From: Cymbomonas tetramitiformis
Lineage: Eukaryota > Chlorophyta > Pyramimonadophyceae > Pyramimonadales > Pyramimonadaceae
Assembly (NCBI GenBank): GCA_001247695.2
Contig: LGRX02034703.1
Span: 1 to 64,000, forward strand
Direction: 5' to 3'
DNA: 64,000 nt
Part shown: positions 25,778-50,774 of the stretch, piece by piece
Layout: each line of letters opens with the position of its first letter
How positions within the stretch are numbered: position 1 is the stretch's first letter
Position numbers and translations under genes: made by a program
Notes under the pieces: generated by a model
What the model saw: only the letters and a program-made list of their open reading frames with translations
Told to the model about the DNA's origin: nothing
Databases searched by the model: none

Positions 25778-26397
25778 TGTCATAAACTGAGAATCAATGT
25801 TATAGTAAATGTAAGTTTCACTTTGTGACAACTGTGAACTTATGTGAACTTATGTAGATTTCTGGAATTTTGCGATTTTACCCTGGTTTGTGAACTTATG
25901 TACATTTCTGGAAAATCTGCGATCTTGAAACACGGCTTGTCATTAACTGAGAATCATCATTATAGTAAATACAAGTTTCTGTTTGTGACACAGTCCGGTG
26001 GTACACATCTGGAAATTTTGCGATTTGGAAATATAGTTTGTCATAATTAGAGAAGTAGTATTATAGTAAATCTAAGTTTCTATTTATGACAACTATGAAT
26101 TTGTGTACTGTGATTTTCCCTCACAGTGCGATTTGAGCCAGATCTGTGATCGCTGTGATCGGAGCTGATCGGAGCTGATGAGATTACGGGTTGCCATGCT
26201 TGTCATTATTAGAAATTGATCTATATAGTAAATCTAAGTTTCACTTTCTGACACGCACCGGCTGCAGTGTGATTTATTGAAAAAGTGAGGCAATGGTTAC
26301 CTAAAATATCGGGCGTTTCATGCTTTTTTTGCGATCGCAATCCTTGTCATAAACTGAGAATGGTGTATATAGTAATTTTAAGTTTCTCTTTATGACA
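25778..26397. repeat. Five 53-bp TGTCA-TGACA palindromes in the left ITR
   Basis: Copies lie at 25778-25830, 25938-25990, 26039-26091, 26201-26253 and 26345-26397, each 53 bp. Consensus arms are TGTCATAAACTGAGAAT and the reverse complement of TGTCATAAAGTGAAACTTA, around a central TATAGTAA. Spacer DNA between copies is unrelated. Confidence 0.9.
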
Positions 26398-26433
26398 AAA
26401 CTTGATTCCTTTTTCTCTTCCGATATCTTATCA

Positions 26434-26994
26434 TTAAAATTGGATTTCTATAAATTTTGCCAGGAAGCTTATACGTTGCCCCTGTAAATTGCGTCCACTG
26501 TCCAGTTTTAACACACATTGCCCACTTTTTACATAAGTGTAATATACCAATGCATCATTTGGATCATTAGCATCGTTTGTTGAAACTGCACTTACATCTA
26601 TTGTATATTTTCTATCATCTATTTGTGCGTTCGTTATTGGGAGAGCAAGTGTATTAAATGTGATATCCATGATTTTTACACCATCATCTACATCGGCTGC
26701 ACTTAACGTCAAATCAAAGAAGCAAATGAATTTACCCTCTGGTATATCTATTGTTCTGTCATTTACATTTCCACCTGTCAAAGCAGTAATGACATTGCAA
26801 CCTCTGTGAGATAACTCTGACGGCAATGTCAGTCCATTTAACTCTGCGACAGGAGTTCGAACAATATCAGCTTCTATTAAATTAGCACCTATGATATCAC
26901 CTAACATGTTAATTCTAAAAAATTGATTTGATGGTATAACAGGTCGTTTACGAAACTCCAAAGCATACACTGAATTAACTTCTGATAAATTCAA
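26434..26994 (-). CDS. Virion-associated protein, unrecognised
   Basis: 186 residues, with no family recognised. The sequence is rich in short hydrophobic strands (GKFICFFDLTLSAADVDDG, IMDITFNTLALP) typical of a beta-sandwich, with no signal peptide or membrane segment. The start overlaps the end of the next upstream gene (26975-27280) by 20 bp, so both are probably on one transcript and made together. Its position at the end of the fibre/capsid gene run suggests a virion or fibre-tip component; this rests on context only. Confidence 0.65.
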   Translation of the reverse strand: MNLSEVNSVYALEFRKRPVIPSNQFFRINMLGDIIGANLIEADIVRTPVAELNGLTLPSELSHRGCNVITALTGGNVNDRTIDIPEGKFICFFDLTLSAADVDDGVKIMDITFNTLALPITNAQIDDRKYTIDVSAVSTNDANDPNDALVYYTYVKSGQCVLKLDSGRNLQGQRISFLAKFIEIQF

Positions 26995-27280
26995 CCAGTG
27001 ATGTATTCAAATCTATAAATGTTGAATCAGCAGCTTTTGTCCCTTGTAATTCTAAATTTGTCTTGGAACCTAATTGTACAACGTTGACAATTCCACCATT
27101 GATTCTTGCATTTCCATCTACTTCTAAACCGGAAATTTTTACACTTGCTCCAGCGGTTGCCGGTTCCAAAACATTATTTGTTTCGGTCCATTTTGAACTT
27201 TGTACAGGATTGTATGTTTGACCATTAACGGTATCACATGTTAAATTCTTACAAACTAAACTTTGTCCAAAACTTGACAT
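26975..27280 (-). CDS. Short fibre-like protein with shared N-terminal motif
   Basis: 101 residues starting MSSFGQSLVCKNLTCDTVNG. The opening MS(S/A)FGxxLxVxK is shared with the 602-residue fibre (27845-29653) and the 124-residue protein (29679-30053). The rest has the repeating hydrophobic/turn pattern of a beta-helical or trimeric fibre (ISGLEVDGNARINGGIVNV). The common N-terminus is probably a capsid-docking peptide. The C-terminus overlaps the 186-residue gene. ATATGATAT lies immediately upstream of the ATG. Confidence 0.65.
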   Translation of the reverse strand: MSSFGQSLVCKNLTCDTVNGQTYNPVQSSKWTETNNVLEPATAGASVKISGLEVDGNARINGGIVNVVQLGSKTNLELQGTKAADSTFIDLNTSLVEFIRS

Positions 27281-27293
27281 ATATCATATGTAC

Positions 27294-27833
27294 CTATTTA
27301 AATTTCACGCGGTATCGTTTAAAGTGTTTTATATGTGATATACCTAACAATCCTATAGCGTTAGGATAAACCAATACCGAGCCTTCTGCTACTTCACCAG
27401 TCGCTGGTAATATTAAAGGAACGTCGGAATATTGTGTTGTGGCAACCGAACCGCCTATACCGGTAGCACGTTGTGGTTGATTATGATAATCGGACGTACC
27501 GTCTGGTTTAATTATTCCTATAAGTCTGGCATCTGCTGTGCTCATTTGACTGGACGTCGCTCCTGTATCATATATTAAAATGGCGTTTGCACCAGTCCCA
27601 CCCTCTAATGATACGTTCACCTTTGATTGACGTTGATTTGTTTTTGCTTTTGTTTTTGGTAAGTTCTGTTTGTTATATCTGACTACGTTCCCTTGGGGGT
27701 CAGCAATATTTCTTACCTTACATCGAGTGTTTGCGAGTCTTCCATTTACAATTCCTTTAATTCTCATACCGACCCCATCTTGAACGATGGTTTCACAACT
27801 TGGTAAATTAGGATTATTTCGCTTTACAGGCAT
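27294..27833 (-). CDS. Retropepsin-like aspartic protease
   Basis: 179 residues. The catalytic motif ILIYDTGATSS (Asp89) is followed by DARLIGI, a glycine-rich flap-like segment (ATGIGGSVATT, 123-133), and the second hallmark NAIGLLGISHIKHF (159-171). This is the order seen in clan AA retropepsin-like proteases of the DTGA type. One DTG motif in about 100 residues implies a homodimer. The first 75 residues are basic. It sits between structural genes, which suggests maturation cleavage of capsid or fibre proteins. Polintons normally use an adenovirus-type cysteine protease for that, and none is visible here. There is nothing else retroviral nearby, so it is not a stray Pol fragment. Confidence 0.85.
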   Translation of the reverse strand: MPVKRNNPNLPSCETIVQDGVGMRIKGIVNGRLANTRCKVRNIADPQGNVVRYNKQNLPKTKAKTNQRQSKVNVSLEGGTGANAILIYDTGATSSQMSTADARLIGIIKPDGTSDYHNQPQRATGIGGSVATTQYSDVPLILPATGEVAEGSVLVYPNAIGLLGISHIKHFKRYRVKFK

Positions 27834-27844
27834 TTACAATATAT

Positions 27845-29653
27845 TTACAATTTAAATGACGGTTGTAAATAACATATAACTGCATTTGGCGATGCATGAG
27901 TTACGGTTTCCATACAGCACCCGATTACACCATTAGTCGCCACAACTGCCGAAGAATTGACAACACCATTTGCTTGAAGTCCTAAAAGCTGACCCTTGGT
28001 GTACGATCCATCAATACAGTTAACAGAACAGAAACCGCTAATAAGTACAAAACAAGAATTACCTGCAAGACTATCTTGGACACATACACCTATAACACCG
28101 ACATTGGTATTAGTAGCTGTGTTTGTTGCTGCATAGGGTTTTACACCATTGATGTTAGTGCTTACATCGTCAAATGACACCACCGTTCCTGATGTGATTG
28201 TAGAAGCTGTTGTATTCACCATTGTGTAAACTTGGCCTGTGAATGTGTTTGGTGATGTCGTTTTTCTATAAGCACTCGTAAGTTGAGTTAATGGAATACC
28301 ATCAGTCGTTATCGAAGATGTGTTTGGTGTTGTGTAAGCCCAATCAATACTGTTCGTGATTCTTATGGCCGCCGTATCCAAATCTGAAGTGAGGTTGATC
28401 GAACCGCCTGTATTACCAACAGCAAGAACTTGTGATAAACTCGGTATACCACCACCACTTGAAACAGGGCCGTAACGTACCTCGTTGGATGCTGTATCGT
28501 AGTGGAGCATTTGTGACTCGCTTGCTGGGTCGGGACTGGCCCTGACAGGTCTGATATAAAAACTACTTGCGACACCGGCATTCAGTTCAACCCCGCTTGC
28601 ATTCAAAACGATTGTGTTATCGGTGTTAACCGCACTCTGAGCAGAGTTCTGTCCTGCGAGAGCACCTATGTTGATTGCATTTTCACCTGCTGTAAATTCA
28701 CCTGCATATTTTCCAATGTTCACGGCTGCATCTTTGCAATTGTTCTGCCCACAGTCGTCCCCAATAGACACGACATAAGAACCGCAATTGTTATTGCATG
28801 AACCAGAACCAATTGCAATCGTATCATTACTTGTTGTATTGTTAATAGATAATGCATTGCGGCCGATTGCGATAGAACGATCTCCAATGTGGTCGGCATT
28901 GGTAAACCCTTGAGTTTGTTCTCCGATAGACACTTTTCCAAAACCACCAGAACCTGATTCAATTCTAAGATTATTGCCACTCAGTTTTTCTTGATTGACT
29001 ACCATGGTACCCGTTCCGGTGTATGAAACATCGGCGACACTGGTCGTGCTACCTTGATCAGTGACCGATTGTAGATTCTGATTTGCACCAGAAGGTAAGT
29101 TTGTCAAAAGGCTTCCATCTCCGCGATATTTGCCTGCAGTCAATGTGATATCACCGCTGTTGAGCACGAGTGGACCGTCGTTGATTAATACCCCATTGCC
29201 GAATGGCTCTATATTGATTGTCGTTTGCATACATGTAATTTCATTAATACCGGTTTCCCCAATTGAGACTCGTGTTTGTTCAACAGGGTCTAAGCTTTTA
29301 ATCTCGAAAGAAGCATCGAGGTCATCGAGACCTGCTGAAAATCGTGATTTGGAAACCGGGTTGTTCAACACGAAGTCGTTGAATTTGATTGATGTGTGTA
29401 CTTTTAGCGACCCATCTGTCAACAAGGACATTTGTTCTCGTTCATTCAACGGGTCTTGAGTATCTATGAATTTGATATCGTTCTGGTAGCGTATGTCCGA
29501 ACCGATATGCATCGTCTCTAACGGCGAGTCTACGCTGCCTATAGTTTGGCACACAACTGTATCGCACGTTAGTGTATCGGTTGTCCCTGGGGCTGCTACA
29601 TAGTCTTTGCCGTTAATTTTTTCAACTATTAGATTTGAACCGAAAGCTGACAT
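27845..29653 (-). CDS. Long fibre protein with YadA-head-like repeats
   Basis: 602 residues starting MSAFGSNLIVEKINGKDY, the shared docking motif. Residues about 260-340 hold left-handed beta-roll repeats of the SIAIGRNA / TIAIGSGS / VVSIGDDC / AVNIGKYAG / AINIGALAG type, as in trimeric autotransporter heads and viral tail fibres. A segment about 355-395 (SFYIRPVR...QMLHYDTASNEVRYG) is of a kind common in fibres of algal viruses. The C-terminal 180 residues are Cys-rich and beta-predicted, possibly the receptor-binding tip. A trimeric spike is the likely form. TATAGTATATA abuts the start codon. Confidence 0.75.
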   Translation of the reverse strand: MSAFGSNLIVEKINGKDYVAAPGTTDTLTCDTVVCQTIGSVDSPLETMHIGSDIRYQNDIKFIDTQDPLNEREQMSLLTDGSLKVHTSIKFNDFVLNNPVSKSRFSAGLDDLDASFEIKSLDPVEQTRVSIGETGINEITCMQTTINIEPFGNGVLINDGPLVLNSGDITLTAGKYRGDGSLLTNLPSGANQNLQSVTDQGSTTSVADVSYTGTGTMVVNQEKLSGNNLRIESGSGGFGKVSIGEQTQGFTNADHIGDRSIAIGRNALSINNTTSNDTIAIGSGSCNNNCGSYVVSIGDDCGQNNCKDAAVNIGKYAGEFTAGENAINIGALAGQNSAQSAVNTDNTIVLNASGVELNAGVASSFYIRPVRASPDPASESQMLHYDTASNEVRYGPVSSGGGIPSLSQVLAVGNTGGSINLTSDLDTAAIRITNSIDWAYTTPNTSSITTDGIPLTQLTSAYRKTTSPNTFTGQVYTMVNTTASTITSGTVVSFDDVSTNINGVKPYAATNTATNTNVGVIGVCVQDSLAGNSCFVLISGFCSVNCIDGSYTKGQLLGLQANGVVNSSAVVATNGVIGCCMETVTHASPNAVICYLQPSFKL

Positions 29654-29678
29654 TATATACTATAAACGATTTAATAAT

Positions 29679-30053
29679 TTACGATGGAGGACGTCTTGAG
29701 ACAAGTTTCATAAAGATTTGGGCAGGTAAATTATTTGCAGTCCGATAACCATACAATCCATTAACCGGAACTTCGGCGTCAAATGGAGGTGTATTTGTTG
29801 GACCTGTGACAATTGGCAACCCACCTAATCTAAATTTGGTTAGCTTTCCCGCCATGTTGAAATCTGCAATACCGGGGTCCCCGCTTTGGCTTGCATCAAA
29901 ATTAAATATAGCTTCAGTTCCTAACAAATTAATTTGAGTTCTTGCTTCCGGTACAGCCCCATTTTTACCATCACGACCGATGGTCATTCCTCTACCGACC
30001 AAATCATCGGCCACCACTTTTTTTACATTCAATTCATTTCCAAATGAAGACAT
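29679..30053 (-). CDS. Small fibre-like protein with shared N-terminal motif
   Basis: 124 residues beginning MSSFGNELNVKKVVADDLVG, a third version of the docking motif. The remainder (INLLGTEAIFNFDASQSGDPG, then VNGLYGYRTANNLPAQIFMK) has no recognised family but looks beta-rich. It is transcribed with the fibre and capsid genes with 25-bp spacing. It may be a short alternative spike or a base on which the longer fibre stands. Confidence 0.6.
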   Translation of the reverse strand: MSSFGNELNVKKVVADDLVGRGMTIGRDGKNGAVPEARTQINLLGTEAIFNFDASQSGDPGIADFNMAGKLTKFRLGGLPIVTGPTNTPPFDAEVPVNGLYGYRTANNLPAQIFMKLVSRRPPS

Positions 30054-30069
30054 GTCGATATATATTAAC

Positions 30070-30390
30070 TTATGAAAAAAACAAAGGTACAGGTTGCAAC
30101 AATCGACTATTCAATGGATGCTCCATCGGGAAATGAAACATTTCCATTTCTTTTGACACTTTTTGATTGTGCCCTAAAGTATAAGATTTGTATCCAGCCA
30201 GAGGATGAACGTTGCTGATCCTAAATGGTGGATATGTGATGTCATTGATTGTTTTACATGGTAGCTGTTGCATCATAACCGGTCTAAAACCTGACATTTG
30301 AAACATCGTCGCGGTGTGAATTTGTTTGTCCACGTTCGGTCCTACATCTTTTATCATGTTGTAACTGCTTAATCCTGGCTGTTGAGCCAT
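30070..30390 (-). CDS. Small virion protein, unrecognised
   Basis: 106 residues with no family recognised. It lacks Cys apart from one, is rich in Met, His and Pro (FHFPMEHPLNSRLL) and has no membrane segment. It lies between the fibre genes and the major capsid gene with gaps of 16 and 23 bp, so a role in the virion is likely from context. GTTAATAGTATAC stands just before the ATG. Confidence 0.55.
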   Translation of the reverse strand: MAQQPGLSSYNMIKDVGPNVDKQIHTATMFQMSGFRPVMMQQLPCKTINDITYPPFRISNVHPLAGYKSYTLGHNQKVSKEMEMFHFPMEHPLNSRLLQPVPLFFS

Positions 30391-30413
30391 ATTTGTATAC
30401 TATTAACCGCGTT

Positions 30414-31748
30414 TTAAAATACAGTTTCAATCACACGGTTTTGACCGATACGAAGAACTGCGGTTGTTTCGCAAATGATCATGGTTTCGTTTTTTGTAAG
30501 TACCGTTTGTAGCGGGTCTGCTGGTGATGCAGTAGAAGTAGAAAGGTACATTGAACTCGAAAGTCCTCTGCTATCTAAACCAGTTTGACTTCTTACACCC
30601 ATTTCTGAGGGAAGATTCAAACGTACCATAGGAATGAACTGATTATTGAGCCAATCGTCATAACTGTTAATCTTACAACCCGATAGCGTTCCATAATTGT
30701 CAGCTTTACCGATAGTAAGAAGATTGAATGCTGCAAGAGGATCGACTCGATAGTTAGGAACGAACAGGTTATTAATGTTAAATTGCAGAGCACCCAATCC
30801 ACCTGCTGAAAACTGAAAGTATGAGGGTAGGTAGGCTGTTCCACATGTATTTTCCAATTTGATAAGTCCTTTGTTTTTTTCTCTATAATCATTAGGCCTT
30901 TGCACAGCATATATGGTATTAATGCATTGTGAACTCAATGAGAACCTTGTCGATTTGTCCATACCACCAGCTCCTTCAAAGAAACTAAAATAATTGTAAT
31001 ACGGAATCTCCAAGAATCCATCACGCAATTTTGATTCCACCGCTGCGTCGTAGACCCCTGAACTAAACGTGATCGTCTCAACGGTAAAGTAGAGTTTGTC
31101 CAATTTAAAATTGCCTTTCGATACTAATTCTTCTTGAGCTTTTGTGTCAATTTCAAAACCAGGTGTTTTTGTTTTTTGCCAACACCCGAGGACTTCTGGA
31201 CCTGCAAGGTACAGCCTTATCTGAATCGGTGGCAAAAGTGAAGTATCAATGTAAGACGGTTCCGCTTCACCCAAAAACGTTAGCCATTGATTCAAAATGT
31301 ATGGACGAGGTGTGCTGTAAAAGCCCTCGGCTACAGAGATTTCTTGATTCTTAAGAACCCTTTGATAAGTCATTTCTTTGCTAAGAGTGGTTTTGATAGT
31401 ATCAAGTACGCAACTGACCGTGTTGTATCCTTGAAAGCCAGTGGTTAACTGCTGCCCTCCGGCGAAGATTTCCATTCTTTGAATCAATTTCTCGATACCA
31501 TTGGGGAGCGTCGTATGTAATTCATCAGCAACACCTGCGTCGTTTTGAAATGCTAAAGGCGTTGTACAGGAACCTAAACAATGCATGGCTAAACTCTTCA
31601 TGTTTACAATTGAATTAACGGGTAGATTTAGTGTAATAGTACTATACCTTGATGCTTCGGTAAGATTAGTAGTCTCTAATCTAAAGTAATTAGTTGAATA
31701 TGAATTCATTTTCGATAAGCCGTAAGCAAGAGTCATTGGCAGACTCAT
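30414..31748 (-). CDS. Major capsid protein, double jelly-roll type
   Basis: 444 residues. I chose the ATG at 31748 (MSLPMTLAYGLSKMNSYSTN) because the ATG at 31811 would extend into the neighbouring gene and past the TATA-like box. The LPNGIEKLIQRMEIFAGG segment, followed by GFQGYNTVSCVLDTIK near residues 80-120, is of the kind seen in Polinton-like virus capsid proteins. A second half with strand-rich blocks (LDKLYFTVETITFSSGVYD; AVLRIGQNRVIETVF) fits two jelly rolls. It would form trimeric hexons of an icosahedral shell. It lies next to the candidate minor capsid gene, the usual order. The assignment rests on pattern, size and neighbours. Confidence 0.8.
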   Translation of the reverse strand: MSLPMTLAYGLSKMNSYSTNYFRLETTNLTEASRYSTITLNLPVNSIVNMKSLAMHCLGSCTTPLAFQNDAGVADELHTTLPNGIEKLIQRMEIFAGGQQLTTGFQGYNTVSCVLDTIKTTLSKEMTYQRVLKNQEISVAEGFYSTPRPYILNQWLTFLGEAEPSYIDTSLLPPIQIRLYLAGPEVLGCWQKTKTPGFEIDTKAQEELVSKGNFKLDKLYFTVETITFSSGVYDAAVESKLRDGFLEIPYYNYFSFFEGAGGMDKSTRFSLSSQCINTIYAVQRPNDYREKNKGLIKLENTCGTAYLPSYFQFSAGGLGALQFNINNLFVPNYRVDPLAAFNLLTIGKADNYGTLSGCKINSYDDWLNNQFIPMVRLNLPSEMGVRSQTGLDSRGLSSSMYLSTSTASPADPLQTVLTKNETMIICETTAVLRIGQNRVIETVF

Positions 31749-31770
31749 TTTTGTATATATATTATAAAGA

Positions 31771-32778
31771 TTATAAAATATCTGAGAGACCAGCAGGTGC
31801 CAATTCTTCAACTTTGATGCTCAATGAATAATTGATAGAACCGTCTGACGCTTGGGTCGGAGATGCCAATGTGATTAATCTTGCTTTGGAATCTGTAAGT
31901 GTGATTCTAAATGAAGTAAATTGAGACCCAGACACTTCAATAACAAAGTTGTCGTTTGGGTCTATATATCTTATGAAGTCTGTCGTTGTGTCACTTGGCA
32001 ATAATATTTTCGCCCAGATATCAGAACTGATCATTTCGTTAGTGTTTGTAAAAGTAGAAAGATTGGTTGATTCTATATTGTGCGTTGGCAACGATGTTAT
32101 TCTTAAGTACAAGGCGTCGTTGGTTTGAATGTTACATGGATATATTGACGTGCATGTTGTGTTAGCTACTAAATATTTAATTTCAAACAAGTCTATAAGT
32201 TGATATATCTCAGCCAAACCGGCTGTAGTTCTGTTGACTCTTCCACCCAAAACCTGATCTGAGTCGTTGTATTTTCCAGCAGTGGAAACTGAATTTAAGG
32301 CATTTTGTAGGTTACTTCCAGGTAAAGCTTGAAAATCACCGCTAACGCTAAACGATACAAGTTTGACATCGGGTTGTGCAGGATCTAATACTATACGAAA
32401 TTTATTTTGGTAATCAATAACCTCATTCTGATCTTTATCGTAAGTGATAGTAACTGTTTGTATAGTACCACCGATGGCAGTTTTTATTGCGGCGGCCAAT
32501 TTAGATGTGAATTGATCCAGCTCTGTATAATTTGCATAAGGTATTTTCACTTCGGTTAAAGTATTATTTACCGTGTCACCCACATAGAAGATGCCATTGG
32601 TCTCGTTGATACTATACCATGTTTTTGCACAAGAGAAAGTATTCAAAGTTAATCTCAGTTTGGTTTGTGCTCGGTAATTTATCAGCTGAGTGGGTATGTT
32701 CATTTGCAAAACACGTGCGTCTCCATTGCTATTGTCTTCGGAAGACAAGAATAGCGTTCTTGTGCTAATTACGCTCAT
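31771..32778 (-). CDS. Candidate minor capsid (penton) protein
   Basis: 335 residues. It begins MSVISTRTLFLSSEDNSNGD and continues with strand-rich sequence (TKLRLTLNTFSCAKTWYSIN; LTEVKIPYANYTELDQF). The opening pattern, in which the protein states residues with cytoplasmic virion character followed by N-terminal jelly-roll strands, and its place directly upstream of the major capsid gene, match penton proteins of Polinton-like viruses. A single jelly roll would build the fivefold vertices and could anchor the fibres. There is no signal peptide. It overlaps the next upstream gene by 14 bp. Confidence 0.6.
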   Translation of the reverse strand: MSVISTRTLFLSSEDNSNGDARVLQMNIPTQLINYRAQTKLRLTLNTFSCAKTWYSINETNGIFYVGDTVNNTLTEVKIPYANYTELDQFTSKLAAAIKTAIGGTIQTVTITYDKDQNEVIDYQNKFRIVLDPAQPDVKLVSFSVSGDFQALPGSNLQNALNSVSTAGKYNDSDQVLGGRVNRTTAGLAEIYQLIDLFEIKYLVANTTCTSIYPCNIQTNDALYLRITSLPTHNIESTNLSTFTNTNEMISSDIWAKILLPSDTTTDFIRYIDPNDNFVIEVSGSQFTSFRITLTDSKARLITLASPTQASDGSINYSLSIKVEELAPAGLSDIL

Positions 32779-32977
32779 CTATATTAATATAACAATTATC
32801 TTTTATGGAATCAACAGTATCCCGATCTAAAGGAATTGGTTCTTCAATGTTTCCAGTACAAAGGTCATCGTAAAATTCTGGACGTTTGATATAATCATCT
32901 ACAAGCAATTCTACATGAGCTTCTTTAATATCGGGGTATTGAAGTTTGGCTAAGCGTATCAATTCTTGACGGTCCAT
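32765..32977 (-). CDS. Small acidic protein, unrecognised
   Basis: 70 residues from the ATG at 32977 (MDRQELIRLAKLQYPDIKEA). The in-frame ATG at 33019 lies upstream of the TATA-like box TCTATATATTACA and is less likely. It has a helical N-terminal half and an acidic C-terminal half. No family is recognised. It overlaps the candidate penton gene, so they are probably translated from one message. Confidence 0.55.
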   Translation of the reverse strand: MDRQELIRLAKLQYPDIKEAHVELLVDDYIKRPEFYDDLCTGNIEEPIPLDRDTVDSIKDNCYINIDERN

Positions 32978-33013
32978 TGTAATATATAGAGAATAAATTT
33001 GAAAGTTTGAATT

Positions 33014-33066
33014 TGTCACAATTAGAGATTGATGTATATAGTAAATTAGAATCTCACTTTATGACA
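33014..33066. repeat. 53-bp palindrome between structural and lipase/integrase modules
   Basis: TGTCACAATTAGAGATTGAT ... TCTCACTTTATGACA. It lies between two minus-strand genes, ending six bases before the lipase stop codon. Confidence 0.9.
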
Positions 33067-33071
33067 AATCG

Positions 33072-34433: not shown

Positions 34434-34438
34434 TATTA

Positions 34439-35020: not shown

Positions 35021-35026
35021 TATATA

Positions 35027-36649: not shown

Positions 36650-36651
36650 GG

Positions 36652-36704: not shown

Positions 36705-36714
36705 AAAACAAGTG

Positions 36715-40638: not shown

Positions 40639-40656
40639 CTTCCTATACTATATAAA

Positions 40657-41100: not shown

Positions 41101-41108
41101 TGTTACTT

Positions 41109-41161
41109 TGTCATAAAGTGAGATTTTAATTTACTATATACATCAATCTCTATTTATGACA
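41109..41161. repeat. 53-bp palindrome between polymerase and ATPase modules
   Basis: TGTCATAAAGTGAGATTTTA ... CAATCTCTATTTATGACA. It lies between divergent genes, so here it cannot be a simple terminator. Confidence 0.9.
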
Positions 41162-41214
41162 ACTTAAGTCAGATCAAGAAATATTATTTTCTTAGGGTAT
41201 CCTATAGTTACTTA

Positions 41215-41700: not shown

Positions 41701-41703
41701 TAT

Positions 41704-42636: not shown

Positions 42637-42925
42637 AGGATGTATTCAATTTATGCATTATTCTTTCATTGGCGTCTTTTAAACACTTGTGAACGTACTC
42701 TCTCACTTCAATGTTGACGTCACCGTCTCTTGTATCATGATCAATATCCTTTTCAAGATATAAGTGTGAGGGATACAGCAATGGTAGCAAAAAGAGTTGT
42801 CTCTCAAGTTCTTCGTCGCGGTAATTAGAATAGACTGATCCTAAATTTTCATAGCAATAATCGTAACAATTTTGAACGTGTTCATGGATGCTCAGTTCAG
42901 CGTTGATCAATGTGGAGATATTCAT
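42602..42925 (-). CDS. Small acidic protein, unrecognised
   Basis: 107 residues, mostly helical and acidic (NCYDYCYENLGSVYSNYRDE; IEVREYVHKCLKDANERIMH). No family is recognised. It has four Cys, not arranged as a zinc finger. Convergent with the ATPase, overlapping by 35 bp. CTTATATATGTAAG upstream of the ATG follows the common promoter pattern. Confidence 0.5.
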   Translation of the reverse strand: MNISTLINAELSIHEHVQNCYDYCYENLGSVYSNYRDEELERQLFLLPLLYPSHLYLEKDIDHDTRDGDVNIEVREYVHKCLKDANERIMHKLNTSSMIVDSDLGEE

Positions 42926-42977
42926 TCTTACATATATAAGATCTGGTATCCTTAAATGGTTGCATATGTCTATAAGT

Positions 42978-43029
42978 TGTCATAAAGTGAGATTTAATTT
43001 ACTATATATATCAATCTCTAATTATGACA
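42978..43029. repeat. 52/53-bp palindrome supplying the C5-methyltransferase start codon
   Basis: TGTCATAAAGTGAGATTTAA ... CAATCTCTAATTATGACA. The ATG of the methyltransferase is the ATG inside the final TTATGACA. Confidence 0.9.
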
Positions 43030-43668
43030 CCGACACGTGTCTTAGAGCTATTCTCCGGGACGGCATCGGTCAGCAAAGTACTTAAGGAAATCTATAAAAA
43101 TTGCGAAATTGTATCGGTGGATATACTGCCCGATCATGATCCAACTCATGTCGTGGACATACTAAGCTGGGATTACACCGTATATCCACCAAAGCACTTT
43201 GATATGATCTGGGCCAGTCCACCATGCACGGAATATAGTAAGGCCAAGAGATACCAACCACGAAATCTGGAGTTGGCTGATAGCATAGTTGAGAGAACAT
43301 TGCAAATCATTGACTACTTGAAACCTACATATTGGTTCATTGAGAACCCAGCAGATGGTGGCTTAATGAGACATAGACCGGTGATGCAACACATGAATAA
43401 ATACATCCACACATGCTGCTATTGTCGATATGGATTTGAATATCGGAAGGCTACCAATATTTGGACTAATCGGGAAGGGTTAGATTTGAAGATGTGTTTC
43501 AAACACAGCACACCGTGTCAATCAATGGAATTGTATGGGAAGCATATGAAGTCGGCTCAATATGGCCGAAGCTCGTGTGCATCCCATGGGATCGGGAGAG
43601 GCAGGGTTGAGAATGTGTATAGCATACCTCGTGAGTTGATCATAACTCTTGTCACTTTTAGAGATTGA
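43024..43668 (+). CDS. DNA (cytosine-C5) methyltransferase, compact
   Basis: 214 residues. Motif I is VLELFSGTASVSKVL (7-20) for S-adenosylmethionine. Motif IV is MIWASPPCTEYSKA with the catalytic Cys68 in a Pro-Cys pair. Motif VI is WFIENPADGG (Glu107). The C-terminal target-recognition part is short, so the enzyme is smaller than the 300-plus residues of bacterial C5 enzymes. It would methylate viral DNA, perhaps for self-protection, timing, or to mimic host chromatin. The gene starts inside one 53-bp repeat and stops inside the next, so it looks like a one-gene cassette. Confidence 0.85.
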   Translation: MTPTRVLELFSGTASVSKVLKEIYKNCEIVSVDILPDHDPTHVVDILSWDYTVYPPKHFDMIWASPPCTEYSKAKRYQPRNLELADSIVERTLQIIDYLKPTYWFIENPADGGLMRHRPVMQHMNKYIHTCCYCRYGFEYRKATNIWTNREGLDLKMCFKHSTPCQSMELYGKHMKSAQYGRSSCASHGIGRGRVENVYSIPRELIITLVTFRD

Positions 43669-43702
43669 TGTATATAGTAATATTAAGTTTCACTTTATGA
43701 CA
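43650..43702. repeat. 53-bp palindrome containing the C5-methyltransferase stop codon
   Basis: TGTCACTTTTAGAGATTGAT ... AGTTTCACTTTATGACA. It lies between convergent genes; the stop codon of the methyltransferase is at 43666-43668 within it. Confidence 0.9.
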
Positions 43703-43719
43703 AATGCATGTTACTTGTG

Positions 43720-46602
43720 TTAATCCATTAAATATACTTTACCGCGTCGTATGAATTTTACTTTAAATGGCCAATTGCCGGTAGTAGCTTCTATTCTTGT
43801 TCTCATAGTGGACACAAGATCGTTCCATAGTTCAACCCTCTTTCTCGATTTCTTCTCGTCCTCCGATTCTTCCTCGTCAATGAATTGGTATTCTCCATTT
43901 AACAACCCGAAGTCCTTGAAGAGCTCAGGTTTTCGAAATCCCAACAACGTTTTGTGTTCCTCCAAAATCTCCGGCACAACCTCATAGGTGTATCCCCGCT
44001 TGTCTTTGTATCTCACTTGCTTACCTATAGTAAATTTATCTCCGAACAAGTTGTGATAGATCTTACTTTGCAATGCATCACAATCTTGCTTTTGAGTCAG
44101 ATCGTACCCCTTTGCTTTCTTTGTCGGAAACATGTTGAAATACTCTTCATTGCATGTGTCACTCTCCTCTTGTGTCAAAGTCTTTTTTGAATCAATGACA
44201 TTCTTATCCAAGTTCTCAACCATTTCTTGAAACCTTTGTAACCACCACACCTTTGCTTGATCAGATCGTACCAGATTCACAAGAAAGTCATCTCCATTTT
44301 CTACCCTTTCTTTCATTTGTGCTTGGTCATATATCCAAAAGTAGCGAGCGACATTGAAGTGCTTCTTCAATAAGTGGTCAGCTTCGTAGTATTTCCTAAA
44401 GGTTTGTAGGTCATCCTTGGGCACTTCCAACATCTCATGAATTCTTTTGTAAACCTCACATGACATAGGGTCAAATTCTTGTGGAACCTCGGTTTCATCT
44501 TCTATTGGTTTCCTCAACCTTTGTGCTTTAAGATATTGGTTCTCAAAGACGAACCCCTGATTTCTCATTATATTGATGAAGTGAGCTCGTTTATTGGTGT
44601 TGTAACAAAGCTCCTTGTACTCAAATCGTGCCCGAGATTCTAAGTATTCCTCGGCCAATTCTTTTGGGATTGATGGCAACTTAAATAGTTCTAATCCCAT
44701 TGTGTGGGTGCTCTCCAAATCCTTTCTCACATCTTCAAGTGTCTTCGGGTTTGGTTTGTATTGTTGTTTGTAAAAGAACACATATACACATGTAATGTTC
44801 CTCTCACGCATGCATTGCTGAGCCATGCCTAATGGGTTAATGGTATGTTCTTTATATATTGCAAACACGGGACGTTTCATCTCTTGATTGTTGCTATCTA
44901 TCCCATACACCACTTTGGGACTATATATTATCCTTTTGGTGGTGTTGAAATTAGGTAGCTTGTCGGTCTTCTTGGTGATCAATACTAAATCGTCATGGTG
45001 TGGTTTTAAATATGCATACAATTCTTCGGCCAAGGTAGCGGAGTCCATTGGGATCAAGTACTTGTCTTGTTTTAATATCATCTTTCTAAGGTCTTCCTCT
45101 TTTTCAATCTCATAGATCGGAACACCCGAAAAATGTTTGTACTTGTTGTATATGAACATATACTCCTTGTTAATCGTATTCAAAAATTCAATAGAATCGT
45201 CACATATGTCTTGATCGGTTGCAATGTAATTCCTACTTGTATTTAGTACGTGTTTGAGATATGGGTAGATGTGACTCCTAATTGCATTCAAGGTTGTAGA
45301 CCCTATAAGATGGTCGTGTATAGAATTCCACTCATCCATGAAAATGGTGTACTCTTTCAAATCAAACCTACTCAACTTGCACAAGCTATCTAATTGTATG
45401 ACAATGTTATCTCCTTGCTTCAATGAGTCGTCCTCATCGTTGTAGATTTTACAATTGATCCCCGCCTCATTGAACTTTGTATAGTGATCTTCGGCCAGAC
45501 TCACTCTTGATACAATGCTTACAAACTTCATTCCATTTCGCTTTTCAAGATTGGCTTTAGTGTGATCCATGAATGTTGTTGTCTTCCCAGTGGCACAGCC
45601 CGATTTGATGATGTATGATGTATCAGGTGCTAAAATGTCCGATCCTTGGTTCTTTTGTAATTTGTCACGCCTTATGACATTATGAGGTTTGATCTTGTTC
45701 CTTGGAAGTGTTTTCATTTTATGATGATTGACGGCTATCTTCTTTTTTGCTTTGGAGAGTAGCCATGAGACTGAATCAAACTCATTGGGTTTGCATGCAT
45801 TCCATATCTTGATGTTGTTATCATGATCATACTTTGGTTTGGTCTTTGAAAATTCATCCCATTTTGTATTTTGATTCAATCCCTTCATGGCATTGGTAAA
45901 GAGCCGAAAATCTTGGTATGTATCAATGATATCATGAGGTAGCATGCTCAATATGTTATCAATGTCTTTATCGCTTAAGTCATAATACACCTCTCCTTCT
46001 TGAGTGTATTCCTCTTGAGGCTTGATCTCAAACTTTCCGGTTTTTTCATTTTTTTTAGAAGTGGATGTGTAAATGTGTTCCAACAAGAATTGCTTTATTG
46101 CTTCCGGCATTTCCTTGATGGATGTATCATGATAAACAGTGTAGTCCTTGTGGATAATACTTTTAGCTATATCATATATGTGTGAATGTGGTGCTACAAT
46201 ATATCTTTTATTTGAAATGACGTCAATTTCATAAGCACTCCTTGAACAAGGAAAATCCTTGTCATATTTGAAATACAAGTGGAATCCTCCTCTACAAGAT
46301 TGAGCGGTGTAGGTATTGAACACCCTTGGATCTTTTCCAAAAGCAAGAGTCCATGGATGATTATCCATATCCCATTTATTGGTATCCAAGTCTACCACAA
46401 TCATGTCGTTGACTTCACCACCAATGATACCAACATTGAAATTTTTGTTTGGCTCTATACCTTTGAATTGCTTCGTTTTGTCGGTATAGAAACCTTTACT
46501 ATCTTTATGTGGTTTTTTGGAATTGGCCATCAACTTAAACTTGATCATATCTTGAAGGGGACGAGTATCATCATACATAGTGACAACACTTTGGTGGGAC
46601 AT
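43720..46602 (-). CDS. AEP primase-polymerase fused to SF2/UL9-like helicase
   Basis: 960 residues from the ATG at 46602 (MSHQSVVTMYDD); the ATG at 46617 would place the TATACA box within the gene. N-terminal AEP prim-pol: MIVVDLDTN (Asp71, Asp73), RGGFHLYF (His108) and EIDVI (Asp127). A linking region about 205-240 (IDNILSMLPHDIIDTYQDFR) resembles the PriCT-type connector. The helicase part has Walker A KSGCATGKTTT (about 335-345), FVSIVSRVSLAEDH, and Walker B TIFMDEWNS (about 420), like herpesvirus origin-binding helicases. No SF3 helicase signature was seen. It would prime and unwind DNA during replication. The last 350 residues have no recognised domain. Confidence 0.85.
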   Translation of the reverse strand: MSHQSVVTMYDDTRPLQDMIKFKLMANSKKPHKDSKGFYTDKTKQFKGIEPNKNFNVGIIGGEVNDMIVVDLDTNKWDMDNHPWTLAFGKDPRVFNTYTAQSCRGGFHLYFKYDKDFPCSRSAYEIDVISNKRYIVAPHSHIYDIAKSIIHKDYTVYHDTSIKEMPEAIKQFLLEHIYTSTSKKNEKTGKFEIKPQEEYTQEGEVYYDLSDKDIDNILSMLPHDIIDTYQDFRLFTNAMKGLNQNTKWDEFSKTKPKYDHDNNIKIWNACKPNEFDSVSWLLSKAKKKIAVNHHKMKTLPRNKIKPHNVIRRDKLQKNQGSDILAPDTSYIIKSGCATGKTTTFMDHTKANLEKRNGMKFVSIVSRVSLAEDHYTKFNEAGINCKIYNDEDDSLKQGDNIVIQLDSLCKLSRFDLKEYTIFMDEWNSIHDHLIGSTTLNAIRSHIYPYLKHVLNTSRNYIATDQDICDDSIEFLNTINKEYMFIYNKYKHFSGVPIYEIEKEEDLRKMILKQDKYLIPMDSATLAEELYAYLKPHHDDLVLITKKTDKLPNFNTTKRIIYSPKVVYGIDSNNQEMKRPVFAIYKEHTINPLGMAQQCMRERNITCVYVFFYKQQYKPNPKTLEDVRKDLESTHTMGLELFKLPSIPKELAEEYLESRARFEYKELCYNTNKRAHFINIMRNQGFVFENQYLKAQRLRKPIEDETEVPQEFDPMSCEVYKRIHEMLEVPKDDLQTFRKYYEADHLLKKHFNVARYFWIYDQAQMKERVENGDDFLVNLVRSDQAKVWWLQRFQEMVENLDKNVIDSKKTLTQEESDTCNEEYFNMFPTKKAKGYDLTQKQDCDALQSKIYHNLFGDKFTIGKQVRYKDKRGYTYEVVPEILEEHKTLLGFRKPELFKDFGLLNGEYQFIDEEESEDEKKSRKRVELWNDLVSTMRTRIEATTGNWPFKVKFIRRGKVYLMD

Positions 46603-46669
46603 CTTTATTGTATACATGTACTTCTCTTTTCTTTAAGTAGTTTCTATACATGGACAAAACGAAAAAAAT

Positions 46670-46855
46670 CTATATTTGTAAGATTTTTTCTGCCTCCTTT
46701 TTCAGCCTATACTTTTCTCGTCTTTTGGCATTAATCTCATCCTTATGTAGGGCGTAGAATGTCCTTGAAGACTTTTTGACAAGCTCTCTAATTTTATCTT
46801 TATGGGCGTTTCTATATCGTTTTTGAGCGAGTTTTGAGGCCTCGCTACGAGCCAT
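46670..46855 (-). CDS. Small basic helical protein
   Basis: 61 residues from the ATG at 46855 (MARSEASKLAQKRYRNAHKD). The ATG at 46870 falls in the TATATA box. It has repeating Lys/Arg/Glu-rich helices (KRYRNAHKDKIREL; LHKDEINAKRREKYRLKKEAE) of a type often seen as short repeats in large DNA viruses, possibly DNA-binding. It precedes the primase-helicase gene in the same direction. Confidence 0.5.
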   Translation of the reverse strand: MARSEASKLAQKRYRNAHKDKIRELVKKSSRTFYALHKDEINAKRREKYRLKKEAEKILQI

Positions 46856-46897
46856 TATTGATATATACATGCAATATAACCTTTAAGTCTTTTTATT

Positions 46898-46950
46898 TGT
46901 CATAAAGTGAGACTTAGAATTACTATATACATCAATTTCTAATTATGACA
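46898..46950. repeat. 53-bp palindrome between primase and cargo regions
   Basis: TGTCATAAAGTGAGACTTAG ... CATCAATTTCTAATTATGACA. It follows the start of the 61-residue minus-strand gene. Confidence 0.9.
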
Positions 46951-47562
46951 AGGTCTTTAAGTTGAAATCGCAAAAAATTGAGCCGGAGATTTTTAGCTCC
47001 GAAATGGTCAAAATTGAATGTTACGAAGTGATATAAGGTACACTAAAACCCTAAAATATCCTAAAACCTAATATGCAATCTCATTAAACCCTAAGCAGTC
47101 AAAAATTGCTCAAACATGATCGGAAAACTCGAAAAATGACCCCAAAAAGGTCAAAATCGCAAAAAAAATTGAGCACGAGATTTTAAACCCTAAATGACCC
47201 ATATGGGGTTGTCATAAAGTGGGAATTAATATTACTATATACATCAATCTCACTTTATGACACCCGCGAAAAATACTGCCTAAAAATGGGCGAAAACAGA
47301 GCCTTAAAACGTCAAAAACTGCAGTCTGCAGATAGCGAAATTTCTCTACCTTTTTTTCAGAGTCTGAAATCGTATGACAGTACGTACAGTAACTGTGTCA
47401 TTTGCCGGACCGATTGCCGGACCGATTGCCGGACCGATTGCCGGACCGATTGCACGACCGTTCGGGGATTTTGAAAATACTTAGAAATTTCTTCTCGACG
47501 ATTCACTTTCGTTGCTGCGTCTGTTTATACTACTGTAAAACTTAGCAATATCACTGAGCAGT
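46951..47562. other. Non-coding segment between repeats with duplicated host-like words
   Basis: ATCGCAAAAAATTGAGC-like sequence occurs near 46967 and again near 47156. AAACCCTAAA-type words occur at about 47048, 47090 and 47185. A 12-bp unit (GCCGGACCGATT) repeats four times at about 47403-47452 inside a doubtful 62-codon frame. This may be the promoter region of the following GC-rich gene. Confidence 0.45.
47210..47262. repeat. 53-bp palindrome upstream of the GC-rich gene
   Basis: TGTCATAAAGTGGGAATTAA ... CATCAATCTCACTTTATGACA. This is the last internal copy before the right ITR. Confidence 0.9.
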
Positions 47563-48897
47563 ATGGCTTCTAACAGAACTGAACATTTTGGAAAATTTTG
47601 TTTTGTTGTTAAACCTGGAACGAATCAACGTTGGCACTACACCAGGGACTTCGGTCCGCCGCACCGTGTACGGAACGCTCCAAGCGGTGATGCGTTCTGT
47701 TGCCACTGGAGTGCTATCCCCGGATCGGACGAGTGGAGACAGTGTGAAGGAAAAGCTGGTTGTTCGGGTCAGCCCTTCTGCTCGTATGCACACTACAAGA
47801 AGACTATGCCCGTTATGTGCCCGAAGCACGCTCAGCCGGTGTACCAAGAGTTTTACGACTCGGATGACCAGAAAGTCTACAAAGACCTCACCGTCACGTT
47901 GGCGTCTATCACCTATGATGGTTTCGTTCAAAAGGCAAAGGCAGCTGTGATCAACAAGAAGAAGAGCAAGGCCCACGACAGTGCGAAGAAGTCCCGAGAG
48001 GAAACGCTGCGGATTGTAAAGATGGCTGACGAGGCGGAGAAGAAAGCCGCTGCTGAACGCATCAAGGTTGACGATACCCTCTACTTGACCCTCAACCAGT
48101 CCTCCTCCTCAACCGTCCCCCAGTATCAGCCCCTTTTATTATTGGAAGGAAACGCGGAGGACGTGGAAGAGGTCGGCGAGAAACTTGCTGGTGTGAAGTT
48201 TGACGACGCCGCGGGTAATTCGTCGGCAGAGGTGGAGGCACTCCGCGACCAGTCCGCCGTTCAGCTGCAGCAGATTGCCGAGCTCGAGAAGGCGGTGAAG
48301 GTTTCTGAAACGAAGAAAGCGAAGTGGGAGAAGGCCTACAACGTTCAGAAGAGTGCTAACGTCAAGTTGACGAAGGAGCGGGACGCATTGAAATCCGAGT
48401 TGGGCGATATCACCGTCCAGAACGAGCAGCTCAAGGCAGCCGACGAGGAGAAGTCCGAGCGTATTCTGGCACTCGAGGAGAACGTGAAGACGTTGCAGGA
48501 CGAGTTGGACTCCTACGAGACCGATTCGGATGACGACGGTGAAGACGAAGACGCTGACGACGACTCCGAGGACGCATCTGGTGCTGGCGGTGACGCTGCC
48601 GACGGCGACGCTGCGGACGGTACGGATGGTGAAGCGGGCGAGGGTGAAGGTGAGGAAGTGGGCTCGCAGGATTCGTCACGCTCAGGTGACACCGAGGAGT
48701 ACGAAGGCTACCTTGGGCAGCCCGTCACGAGCCCGGTGCGTGCGGAAGAAGTCCCGCATGTCGCATCGACGGCGAAAACAGAGCCGGAGCCGAAACAGCG
48801 TACCCAGAAGGAGAAGGAGAAGTTGGTAGGTATTGCATACCACGGCGAGAAGAAGTCCCCAACTACCCGCTCCAAAGCAAAGAAGACTTCAAAGTAG
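47563..48897 (+). CDS. GC-rich coiled-coil protein with Cys/His N-terminus (possible host-derived cargo)
   Basis: 444 residues, no family recognised. Residues 10-100 contain many Cys and His (FCCHWSAIPGS, CEGKAGCSGQPFCSYAHYKK, MCPKHAQP) that could bind zinc. About 105-175 is basic and helical. About 210-320 is a long coiled coil (VEALRDQSAVQLQQIAELEK). An acidic Asp/Glu/Gly stretch (about 322-375) and a basic tail (TTRSKAKKTSK) follow. Its GC-rich codon use is unlike every other viral gene here and like the host flank, so recent capture from the host is likely. Start 47563 is the first ATG of the open frame. It lies between a 53-bp repeat and the right ITR, with the adenine methyltransferase. 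The function is unknown. Confidence 0.7.
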   Translation: MASNRTEHFGKFCFVVKPGTNQRWHYTRDFGPPHRVRNAPSGDAFCCHWSAIPGSDEWRQCEGKAGCSGQPFCSYAHYKKTMPVMCPKHAQPVYQEFYDSDDQKVYKDLTVTLASITYDGFVQKAKAAVINKKKSKAHDSAKKSREETLRIVKMADEAEKKAAAERIKVDDTLYLTLNQSSSSTVPQYQPLLLLEGNAEDVEEVGEKLAGVKFDDAAGNSSAEVEALRDQSAVQLQQIAELEKAVKVSETKKAKWEKAYNVQKSANVKLTKERDALKSELGDITVQNEQLKAADEEKSERILALEENVKTLQDELDSYETDSDDDGEDEDADDDSEDASGAGGDAADGDAADGTDGEAGEGEGEEVGSQDSSRSGDTEEYEGYLGQPVTSPVRAEEVPHVASTAKTEPEPKQRTQKEKEKLVGIAYHGEKKSPTTRSKAKKTSK

Positions 48898-49410
48898 GTT
48901 CAATTATGCATGCACTTTTCGCATCAACACTTGCAATGGTGCAGTAGCGACGGTAGTTACGGCGTCATGCCGTCACAGTATATTTACATTTGTACAACAT
49001 TCGCAGCTTATGGCTGCCTTTTCAGTATAGAATAGTAGGATATATGTATGTATGTATGTGCCATAGTATATGAGGCACCTAAGACAATAGCTAATTGGTC
49101 ATGCCGGGTGCAAACCCTAAATTCGCAACATGTGACTGCAGCCTGATTAGTGCCCAAACTTTATTAGTGGGTTAGTAATTCACGGATGACTTAACATTTT
49201 TGCTCAGAATAGTGCATATGAATGTTTCAGAAGGTTGCATAGTGTTTAAGTAGCATATTGGTTCATATAAGGTAGCATACAGGGTCAAAACCCTGATACC
49301 AGAACATTGCGAAACGTCACCAGAACTAATTTTATAGGTTCAATTGCACGAATGCTTGAATATTATTGCTAATACTTAATGGTTCTTAATGTTATCGACA
49401 GTCTGGTATA
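48898..49410. other. AT-rich non-coding stretch after the GC-rich gene
   Basis: About 510 bp without a gene. It contains a (TATG)n run at about 49044-49058 and AAACCCTAAATTC near 49121, again a host-like word. Confidence 0.4.
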
Positions 49411-50121
49411 TCATATATTCAATAACTCCCGAGCCATATCATAATATTTCTTATCTAATTCAATTCCAATAAATCTGCGATTATCATTATTGCATACCTT
49501 ACCGACCGTACCGATGCCCATGAATGGATCTAATACTTTATCATTCTCATTTGAATAAGTTTTAACGATCCACTCTAATATACCATATGGCTTCGCCGTC
49601 GGGTGTTTGCTTTTGTGATTACCGTTCGCAATAGTTATCACTGATTTCGGAAATCGTTTCCCGTCCGATATTGTGTTAATTCTCGGACTGTTTCCAGTGT
49701 ACAGCTCAGTGCGTCTGCCCGGGACACGTGTGTACGGTTTACCGTCAGTCATCTGTGGATTATAAGTAGGTAACTTATCATAGAATACATACAGCATCTC
49801 GTGACTGCGTAGTGGCATCTGATTGCAATGATAAAATCCAGAACTGACCGTTTTCTGCCACACGATATCATATCTAAACATGTTCTCATTGCTGGATATT
49901 AACTTATGTCCGAACCGAGTCGTACAAAAGAATACATATGCCGTTCGGGGTTTGCCGATACGTTTCAATTGTTTCCATAATTTATCTAAATCAATAATCT
50001 GATTATCAAATTTACAAGCAGTTTGATTATAAGGCAAATCTAAAATAATTAAATCAATTGAGTTACTATCAATGTTCGGTAAAATGTCAAAACAATCTGC
50101 GTGGAATGTCTGGGTCGCCAT
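49411..50121 (-). CDS. DNA adenine N6-methyltransferase, beta class
   Basis: 236 residues from the ATG at 50121 (MATQTFHADCFDIL). Motif IV is LDLPYNQTA (28-35; Asp-Leu-Pro-Tyr in place of the usual Asp/Asn-Pro-Pro-Tyr). It precedes motif I, VLDPFMGIGTVG (about 202-213), which identifies the beta order of N6/N4 enzymes. GIELDKKYYDMA closes the SAM site. The chosen ATG lies one base from the ITR edge. The longer frame to 50160 would start inside the ITR and looks accidental. It would methylate adenine, possibly to mark or protect viral DNA. With the C5 enzyme it gives the virus two different modification chemistries. Confidence 0.9.
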   Translation of the reverse strand: MATQTFHADCFDILPNIDSNSIDLIILDLPYNQTACKFDNQIIDLDKLWKQLKRIGKPRTAYVFFCTTRFGHKLISSNENMFRYDIVWQKTVSSGFYHCNQMPLRSHEMLYVFYDKLPTYNPQMTDGKPYTRVPGRRTELYTGNSPRINTISDGKRFPKSVITIANGNHKSKHPTAKPYGILEWIVKTYSNENDKVLDPFMGIGTVGKVCNNDNRRFIGIELDKKYYDMARELLNI

Positions 50122-50154
50122 TAAGATATCGGAAGAGAAAAAGGAATCAAGTTT

Positions 50155-50774
50155 TGTCATAAAGAGAAACTTAAAATTACTATATACACCATTCTCAGTT
50201 TATGACAAGGATTGCGATCGCAAAAAAAGCATGAAACGCCCGATATTTTAGGTAACCATTGCCTCACTTTTTCAATAAATCACACTGCAGCCGGTGCGTG
50301 TCAGAAAGTGAAACTTAGATTTACTATATAGATCAATTTCTAATAATGACAAGCATGGCAACCCGTAATCTCATCAGCTCCGATCAGCTCCGATCACAGC
50401 GATCACAGATCTGGCTCAAATCGCACTGTGAGGGAAAATCACAGTACACAAATTCATAGTTGTCATAAATAGAAACTTAGATTTACTATAATACTACTTC
50501 TCTAATTATGACAAACTATATTTCCAAATCGCAAAATTTCCAGATGTGTACCACCGGACTGTGTCACAAACAGAAACTTGTATTTACTATAATGATGATT
50601 CTCAGTTAATGACAAGCCGTGTTTCAAGATCGCAGATTTTCCAGAAATGTACATAAGTTCACAAACCAGGGTAAAATCGCAAAATTCCAGAAATCTACAT
50701 AAGTTCACATAAGTTCACAGTTGTCACAAAGTGAAACTTACATTTACTATAACATTGATTCTCAGTTTATGACA
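50155..50774. repeat. Five 53-bp TGTCA-TGACA palindromes in the right ITR
   Basis: Copies lie at 50155-50207, 50299-50351, 50461-50513, 50562-50614 and 50722-50774, the mirror images of those in the left ITR. Confidence 0.9.

Follow-up and report, generated by a model that had tools for sequence, protein, structure and literature searches.

The element and its repeats

The window analysed here, a stretch of 64,000 nucleotides from the green alga Cymbomonas tetramitiformis (contig LGRX02034703.1; C24581 among the 25,745 contigs of the 851.7-Mb genome), contains an integrated polinton-like virus. The subject of this report is a palindromic sequence of 53 bp that is repeated 18 times within this element. 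The limits of the element are as follows.

25524..51031, no strand: integrated polinton-like virus, 25,508 bp, delimited by long inverted repeats, a 6-bp flanking duplication and end points that are the same in other copies
25518..25523, no strand: left target-site duplication TCTGGA, read in the sequence
51032..51037, no strand: right target-site duplication TCTGGA, read in the sequence
25524..26430, + strand: left terminal inverted repeat (ITR), five repeats inside
50122..51031, - strand: right ITR, five repeats inside

Each ITR is about 910 bp long. Long ITRs, a family-B polymerase, an rve integrase and a 6-bp target duplication are all present, as in polinton-like viruses and Mavericks, and the anatomy of the element, as far as it can be read from the sequence, is that of a polinton-like virus, whose capsid protein is only a candidate.

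All 18 copies listed in the original prediction were found at their positions, ten in the ITRs and eight between genes. The strand given below is the one that reads TTACTATA; ORF stands for open reading frame and PolB for the DNA polymerase.

25778..25830, - strand: copy 1, left ITR
25938..25990, - strand: copy 2, left ITR
26039..26091, - strand: copy 3, left ITR
26201..26253, - strand: copy 4, left ITR
26345..26397, - strand: copy 5, left ITR
33014..33066, - strand: copy 6, between the stop of the lipase gene and the first ORF (70 aa) of the capsid block
36652..36704, + strand: copy 7, convergent junction of the 92-aa ORF and PolB
36715..36767, - strand: copy 8, same junction, overlapping the stop end of PolB by 8 bp
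41109..41161, + strand: copy 9, between the divergent 147-aa and 161-aa ORFs; other types here in C7409 and C171
42978..43029, + strand: copy 10, 52 bp, overlapping the C5-methyltransferase start
43650..43702, - strand: copy 11, over the last 19 bp of the C5-methyltransferase, convergent with the primase-helicase
46898..46950, + strand: copy 12, 27 bp from the start of the 66-aa ORF preceding the primase-helicase
47210..47262, + strand: copy 13, 23 bp from the start of the 62-aa ORF preceding the cargo slot
50155..50207, + strand: copy 14, overlapping the adenine methyltransferase start
50299..50351, + strand: copy 15, right ITR
50461..50513, + strand: copy 16, right ITR
50562..50614, + strand: copy 17, right ITR
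50722..50774, + strand: copy 18, right ITR

The length is constant, as had been claimed: 17 copies measure 53 bp, and the one at 42978 measures 52 bp. Using a count matrix built from 12 of these copies, we found no copy in the window beyond the 18. Nothing in the host flanks (~38 kb) reached 12 bits, compared with 69-84 bits for the 53-bp copies, and the maximum on 20 single-base shuffles of the element was 3.3 bits. A general palindrome scan was insensitive and recovered few of the known copies. No target duplication was seen when the sequences flanking the single copies were inspected, in agreement with the original prediction. Across the relatives, 101 copies of 53 bp and 12 of 52 bp were found, and the repeat keeps its length while the ITR spacers change. 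In nine aligned ITRs, two of which are hybrid ITRs (see below) and from which L004 was left out, mismatch was 0.075 in repeat columns versus 0.106 in spacers, and gap cells made up 8.6% versus 33%.

Structure of the repeat

Twelve copies of 53 bp have in common, among other positions, the outer TGTCA and TGACA, an AAA and the centre TTACTATA. This centre is asymmetric, so that each copy has a direction. The palindrome is imperfect, matching at 8-14 of 15 arm positions. Covariation of the two arms, which had been claimed on the basis of the window copies, was not found. Over 10 inner arm positions of 13 copies (the right ITR being left out as a duplicate), an arm scored 6.31 with its own partner and 6.53 with the arms of other copies (P 0.84). 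The same was seen in a larger set of 33 distinct 53-mers from 113 copies, with 5.79 versus 6.00 (P 0.95); the regular expression used to collect this set fixed both ends and some of the centre in advance, and the set excludes the two loci that belong to the window.

RNA hairpins that end transcripts might be expected from the folding of 6 of the 13 copies with z below -2, and several copies do follow stops. The other 7 of 13 do not fold in this way, the arms lack covariation and copies are also located at the starts of divergent genes, which makes this function highly improbable. A hairpin or attC-like folded site was rejected as well, since the arms do not covary to keep pairing. The missing covariation disfavours a hairpin and favours a site that is recognised by a protein in duplex DNA.

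Repeat types in related elements

In the genome the TGTCA repeat of 53 bp (type I) has counterparts of different sequence: type II (GTTCC, 49 bp), type III (TGTCCCA, 52 bp), a GGTGG palindrome of ~71-77 bp and type V (49 bp, ATGTTTCC). Two genes of the window serve as landmarks for their comparison.

43024..43668, + strand: C5-cytosine methyltransferase (Pfam) with repeats on both sides, whose class follows the repeat type
32765..32977, - strand: first ORF of the capsid block (70 aa), also conserved in C22879

At all 12 C5-methyltransferase loci L048-L059, the window included, the gene is flanked on either side by a TGTCA-type repeat. In C22879 seven copies of the GTTCC type were found in the sampled slots (six identified by a script, one by visual inspection; one of the seven is 48 bp long), two flanking the methyltransferase, three in a partial ITR and two at the capsid head. 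They account for seven of the eight palindromes sampled in this element; the eighth, in the ITR, is of the GGTGG type, and inspection of the sampled slots by eye revealed no TGTCA copy. The capsid-head ORF of C22879 is, by eye, nearly identical to that of the window, though its repeats are of type II, so that the junction between the lineages lies between repeat and ORF. At this capsid head the repeats appear to follow the element and not the module. In C606 three TGTCCCA copies are present, and the genome-wide query described below aligned at a second place on this contig, 3,836 bp from the first, exactly over the 52 bp. In C1836 a palindrome of ~71-77 bp with GGTGG arms lies upstream of the methyltransferase. 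The GGTGG-type palindrome, at a length of 71-72 bp, is located at L063 121-192, as a single copy in a type-II ITR, and at L062 383-453, the methyltransferase slot of C1836.

A genome-wide query with the TGTCCCA repeat gave 37 matches on 24 contigs (all 37 candidates scored). Sixteen of these contigs make up the whole listed 70-72% methyltransferase class, eight are unclassed and no other class is represented. In 18 of the 37 rows the alignment is exact over the 52 bp of the repeat and does not extend beyond it. The GTTCC query (best 40 of 222 candidates) matched 40 contigs, 35 of them in the 81-86% class; one match, C17881, belongs to both the 81-86% and the 90-100% classes. The original prediction had also considered tiny non-autonomous elements. 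An ordinary miniature inverted-repeat transposable element with many insertions would have the constant length and inverted ends seen here, yet such an origin is scarcely credible: the copies lack target duplications, the ~38 kb of host flank in the window hold no copy, one and the same slot carries different types in different elements, and the matches of type III are few and take in the whole of its class, even if eight of the 24 contigs fall outside the listed classes.

We consider it likely that the repeats are binding sites for a protein, whichever that may be, and that they are matched to the virus lineage. Several observations limit this reading. For classes II, III and IV the type of the repeat was read directly in a single element each, other contigs being linked by BLAST. 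Downstream of the methyltransferase of C1836 none of the known types was seen, showing that a slot can be empty. C6737 and C6703 have hybrid ITRs of types I and II, with four copies of type I and one of type II in the former and two of each type in the latter. At the 41109 slot, C7409 carries a type-II copy and C171 a type-V copy, the other sampled copies of both being type I. The matching of types is a strong rule, not an absolute one, with four sampled elements mixed. Such elements would be explicable as recombinants or as elements that answer to two factors. In C7279, which is a truncated copy, 24.5 kb outside the ITR locus were read and contained no repeat.

Position of the repeats relative to genes

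Transcription units were inferred from ORFs only, and the gene set used for the placement test includes two small ORFs added in this analysis. The following genes adjoin internal copies or head inferred blocks.

36760..40638, - strand: family-B DNA polymerase, 1292 aa (Pfam DNA_pol_B_2)
35027..36340, - strand: rve-type integrase (Pfam rve, E 1.4e-6, below the Pfam cut-off)
36371..36649, + strand: 92-aa ORF, absent from the gene names of the original prediction
49411..50160, - strand: adenine or N4-cytosine DNA methyltransferase (Pfam)

That the copies keep out of gene bodies was borne out, since all eight internal copies overlap coding sequence by no more than 19 bp. An overlap this small is found at 8.0% of possible positions (P ~1.6e-9 if the copies are independent). 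The stronger wording, according to which only stop or start codons are touched, was too narrow, as a copy at the C5-methyltransferase extends over the final 19 bp of the gene. Ten block heads were inferred, namely g70, int, g92, g147, g161, g107, the C5-methyltransferase, the 66-aa ORF, the 62-aa ORF and the adenine methyltransferase, and at eight of them the first ATG is overlapped by a repeat or lies within 60 bp of one. At the divergent int/g92 pair there is no repeat over the start codons or within 60 bp of them. Three copies (36652, 36715 and 43650) are located at the stops of convergent genes, and none of the five in the left ITR is close to a gene start. Outside the repeats TATAGTA, a part of the repeat centre, has 11 occurrences, 5 of which precede a start by no more than 40 bp (P 4e-5). 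A plain terminator is rejected by us as it was in the original prediction.

The eight block heads and the TATAGTA motif upstream of starts also speak for operators or stoperators, through which another viral regulator would keep the provirus silent or switch gene blocks together, the repeat types then being immunity groups. Moreover, dispersed, intergenic and lineage-specific sites resemble the stoperators of mycobacteriophages as the relevant passages of PMC3029335 describe them. However, stoperators are short, single and asymmetric where the repeats are long and two-armed, copies occur at convergent stops too, and no repressor-like or DNA-binding domain was detected among the proteins scanned with Pfam and PHROGs, a set that does not include the small ORFs found later. 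We regard this explanation as rather unlikely. Still less probable are promoter or enhancer sites for the transcription factor of a helper giant virus, with the types reflecting different helpers. The relevant part of PMC8547959 offers a precedent in the virophage EMALE types of one host, which carry different promoter motifs ascribed to different giant viruses. The late promoter motif of that paper is short and AT-rich, unlike the two-armed sites of 53 bp in this element, ten of which lie in ITRs and others at convergent stops, and no helper is known.

Mosaicism and exchange of modules

Pairwise comparisons show that the elements are mosaics, in which near-identical stretches alternate with stretches of 70-85% identity, and genes of the capsid and the ATPase cross repeat types. 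Breakpoints were inferred by two-state segmentation of five pairwise comparisons with the window. The original prediction proposed recombination sites for module exchange. Site-specific or hotspot recombination at the repeats would be in line with the C5-methyltransferase cassette, which is bounded by repeats: its homology block against C171 and C7409 (42971-43702) begins 7 bp before one repeat and ends together with the other. Helicase alleles also diverge at their 3' ends directly after a repeat, and the repeat type is swapped at the 41109 slot. As a general account the proposal fits poorly. Within 30 bp of a repeat lie 14 of 126 breakpoints versus 8.5 expected, and some of the 14 may reflect conservation of the repeats themselves; the median distance to a repeat is 548 bp for breakpoints versus 649 bp for all positions. 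Mosaicism is spread across the compared stretches, and neither the borders of the cargo slot (~47371-49440) nor those of a large deletion in C3754 (40561 to 49441) coincide with repeats. We therefore judge such recombination sites very unlikely. The repeats may seed some exchanges by homology without being general breakpoints, and module boundaries in such viruses may carry regulatory sites that are not agents of exchange.

Highly divergent alleles of single genes were seen beside more similar neighbours for g193 (L039 and L041 versus 34439-35020) and for the ATPase (L053, L056 and L057 versus 41704-42636). Both proteins are unlikely as binders of the repeats, since they differ strongly between elements that share a repeat type.

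A candidate binder

43720..46617, - strand: 965-aa primase with an SF2 (superfamily 2)-type helicase, origin-binding-protein-like, proposed binder of the repeats (Prim-Pol, PriCT_2, profile match)

The 965-aa protein has Prim-Pol and PriCT_2 domains (Pfam) followed in our analysis by a helicase core that is related to the SF2 helicase UL9. The best solved-structure match of a six-sequence profile, A2, is the herpes origin-binding protein 9hgj_A (E 8.3e-4, over helicase motifs). The profile also matches 9zgf_C (E 0.0039), and its N-terminus matches the pRN1 primase. The C-terminal part is the least conserved region of the primase-helicase alignment, as would be expected of a recognition domain that changes between lineages; a disordered tail would look alike. 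A helicase of at least 84% identity occurs in at least 41 of the 73 contigs with a class-I methyltransferase (best 47 of 278 candidates scored). Among the matches listed it occurs in one of 39 class-II, none of 16 class-III and none of 22 class-IV contigs, the zeros of the last two classes having direct support only from L060, L061 and L062. Aligned helicase fragments reach 59% in L060 and 54% in L061, and no helicase match was found in L062. The single class-II contig is C17881, which has a class-I methyltransferase beside the match. The lack of a helicase in L054 was discarded as evidence, L054 being truncated. Just before the primase-helicase lies a very basic 66-aa ORF (46670-46870, - strand), possibly a DNA-binding protein.

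We suggest that the repeat is a duplex DNA recognition site made up of two inverted boxes of ~15 bp at fixed spacing round an AT-rich centre, and that a protein encoded by the virus, with a specificity that varies from one virus lineage to another, would bind the boxes. The likeliest binder would be the element's own primase-helicase. After loading at boxes of the ITRs and of the junctions between gene blocks, it could melt the AT-rich centre and initiate replication. Because most internal copies are located at gene starts, binding of the helicase might affect transcription as well. That an origin-binding-like helicase is the binder, and that replication is what the sites are for, transcription being affected secondarily, is our preferred but tentative reading. 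Among the functions named in the original prediction, replication or packaging signals (or regulatory sites) give the best fit, a function that we infer.

Several points count against the helicase as binder. The match to the origin-binding protein is limited to the helicase core (145 profile positions), the window protein has no match to Pfam Herpes_ori_bp, and of five relatives one matched this family, below the cut-off. The predicted structure is weak (mean pLDDT 63.9, pTM 0.38), and absence from the helicase matches listed (best 47 of 278) is no proof of divergence. The C5-methyltransferase follows the repeat type as well as the helicase does, so that linkage alone cannot name the binder. 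Furthermore, viruses with a family-B polymerase and long ITRs may start replication at their ends by protein priming, for which internal origins would be unnecessary.

Comparison with known systems

Baculovirus homologous regions (hrs) are dispersed palindromes, proposed as enhancers and origins, and in this they are like the repeats described here; they differ in their shorter palindromes and clustered arrays. The herpesvirus origin OriS has inversely oriented boxes and an AT-rich spacer and is bound by an SF2 helicase with a sequence-specific C-terminal domain, as outlined in the relevant passages of PMC12543377. The inverted boxes round an AT-rich centre and the related helicase core are shared with OriS and UL9, whereas the polinton-like virus has 18 dispersed copies instead of few origins, its helicase is fused to a primase and binding is only predicted. 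Fusions of an AEP (archaeo-eukaryotic primase) with a UL9-like SF2 helicase are represented by mimivirus R8, F1055L of African swine fever virus (ASFV) and proteins of some mriyaviruses, according to the passages concerned in PMC11253617. Their domain order is that of the window's primase-helicase, which in contrast belongs to a polinton-like virus, and those passages do not describe such repeats for them.

Mycobacteriophage L5 has 24 stoperators and Bxb1 has 34, and the two phages are heteroimmune with different sites (PMC3029335, passages on stoperators). Dispersed intergenic location and lineage specificity are common to both systems, but the phage sites as given there are 13-bp asymmetric repressor sites, and no repressor was found among the proteins scanned here. 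For EMALEs and mavirus, the relevant part of PMC8547959 likewise reports several element types with differing motifs in one protist genome, but those motifs are short and upstream of genes, unlike 53-bp two-armed sites in ITRs and at convergent ends. The promoter-like motif of Medusavirus is palindromic, intergenic and found at divergent starts like some of our copies; in the passages concerned it is 24 bp long and present in 0 of 88 convergent regions, in contrast to the copies at convergent junctions here (PMC8557863).

Dispersed viral sites and UL9-like helicases are each of a known kind, while the relevant passages of these papers mention neither their combination nor the lineage types. 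Among the titles and abstract openings listed in literature searches on polinton-like viruses, virophages and mavirus, and on palindromic binding sites of polintons, none described such repeats, which is no proof of absence in print.

Other features of the element and its surroundings

The element encodes a lipase-like protein with a Pfam score just below the cut-off. The candidate double-jelly-roll capsid protein of 444 aa has 36 relatives in a protein search and no Pfam or PDB match. One metagenomic protein, P0008, is 88% identical to it, so that relatives exist outside this assembly; a search of IMG/VR gave no relatives for PolB or for the capsid candidate. Rfam (gathering threshold) and tRNA searches gave no matches. 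Copies related to the 602-aa fibre-like gene are very many, with 2,057 first-look candidates, of which the best 73 were scored; 74 of 76 listed rows are without an internal stop.

The cargo slot (47371-49440) holds here a GC-rich, Cys-rich, acidic ORF of 444 aa with host-like composition, and its DNA content is unlike that of C4717, C171 and C7409, with a weak protein match (22.7%) to C4717. The outer 115 bp of each ITR (25524-25638 and 50917-51031) are bounded by an inverted repeat of ~15 bp, like a small end-capping unit. On the host side of the insertion, a direct repeat of 271 nt (98% identical) lies at 22013-22283 and 51490-51760, and the flank at 58321-58672 is an array of a 22-bp tandem repeat. 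At L043 873-6876, ORFs of >1,900 aa are open on both strands, probably owing to a long tandem repeat.

Implications

It is conceivable, though doubtful on present evidence, that the large population of polinton-like viruses integrated in this one genome is sorted into recognition groups, each with dispersed two-armed boxes and a cognate primase/origin-binding helicase. Structural modules would then move freely, while boxes, methyltransferase and helicase would travel together, and hybrid ITRs would allow two groups to replicate or control an element. If the proposed role of the repeats is right, these elements would supply naturally matched proteins and boxes for a UL9-like helicase of a 25-kb virus, and a rule, based on sequence, that tells which integrated viruses can help or silence each other.

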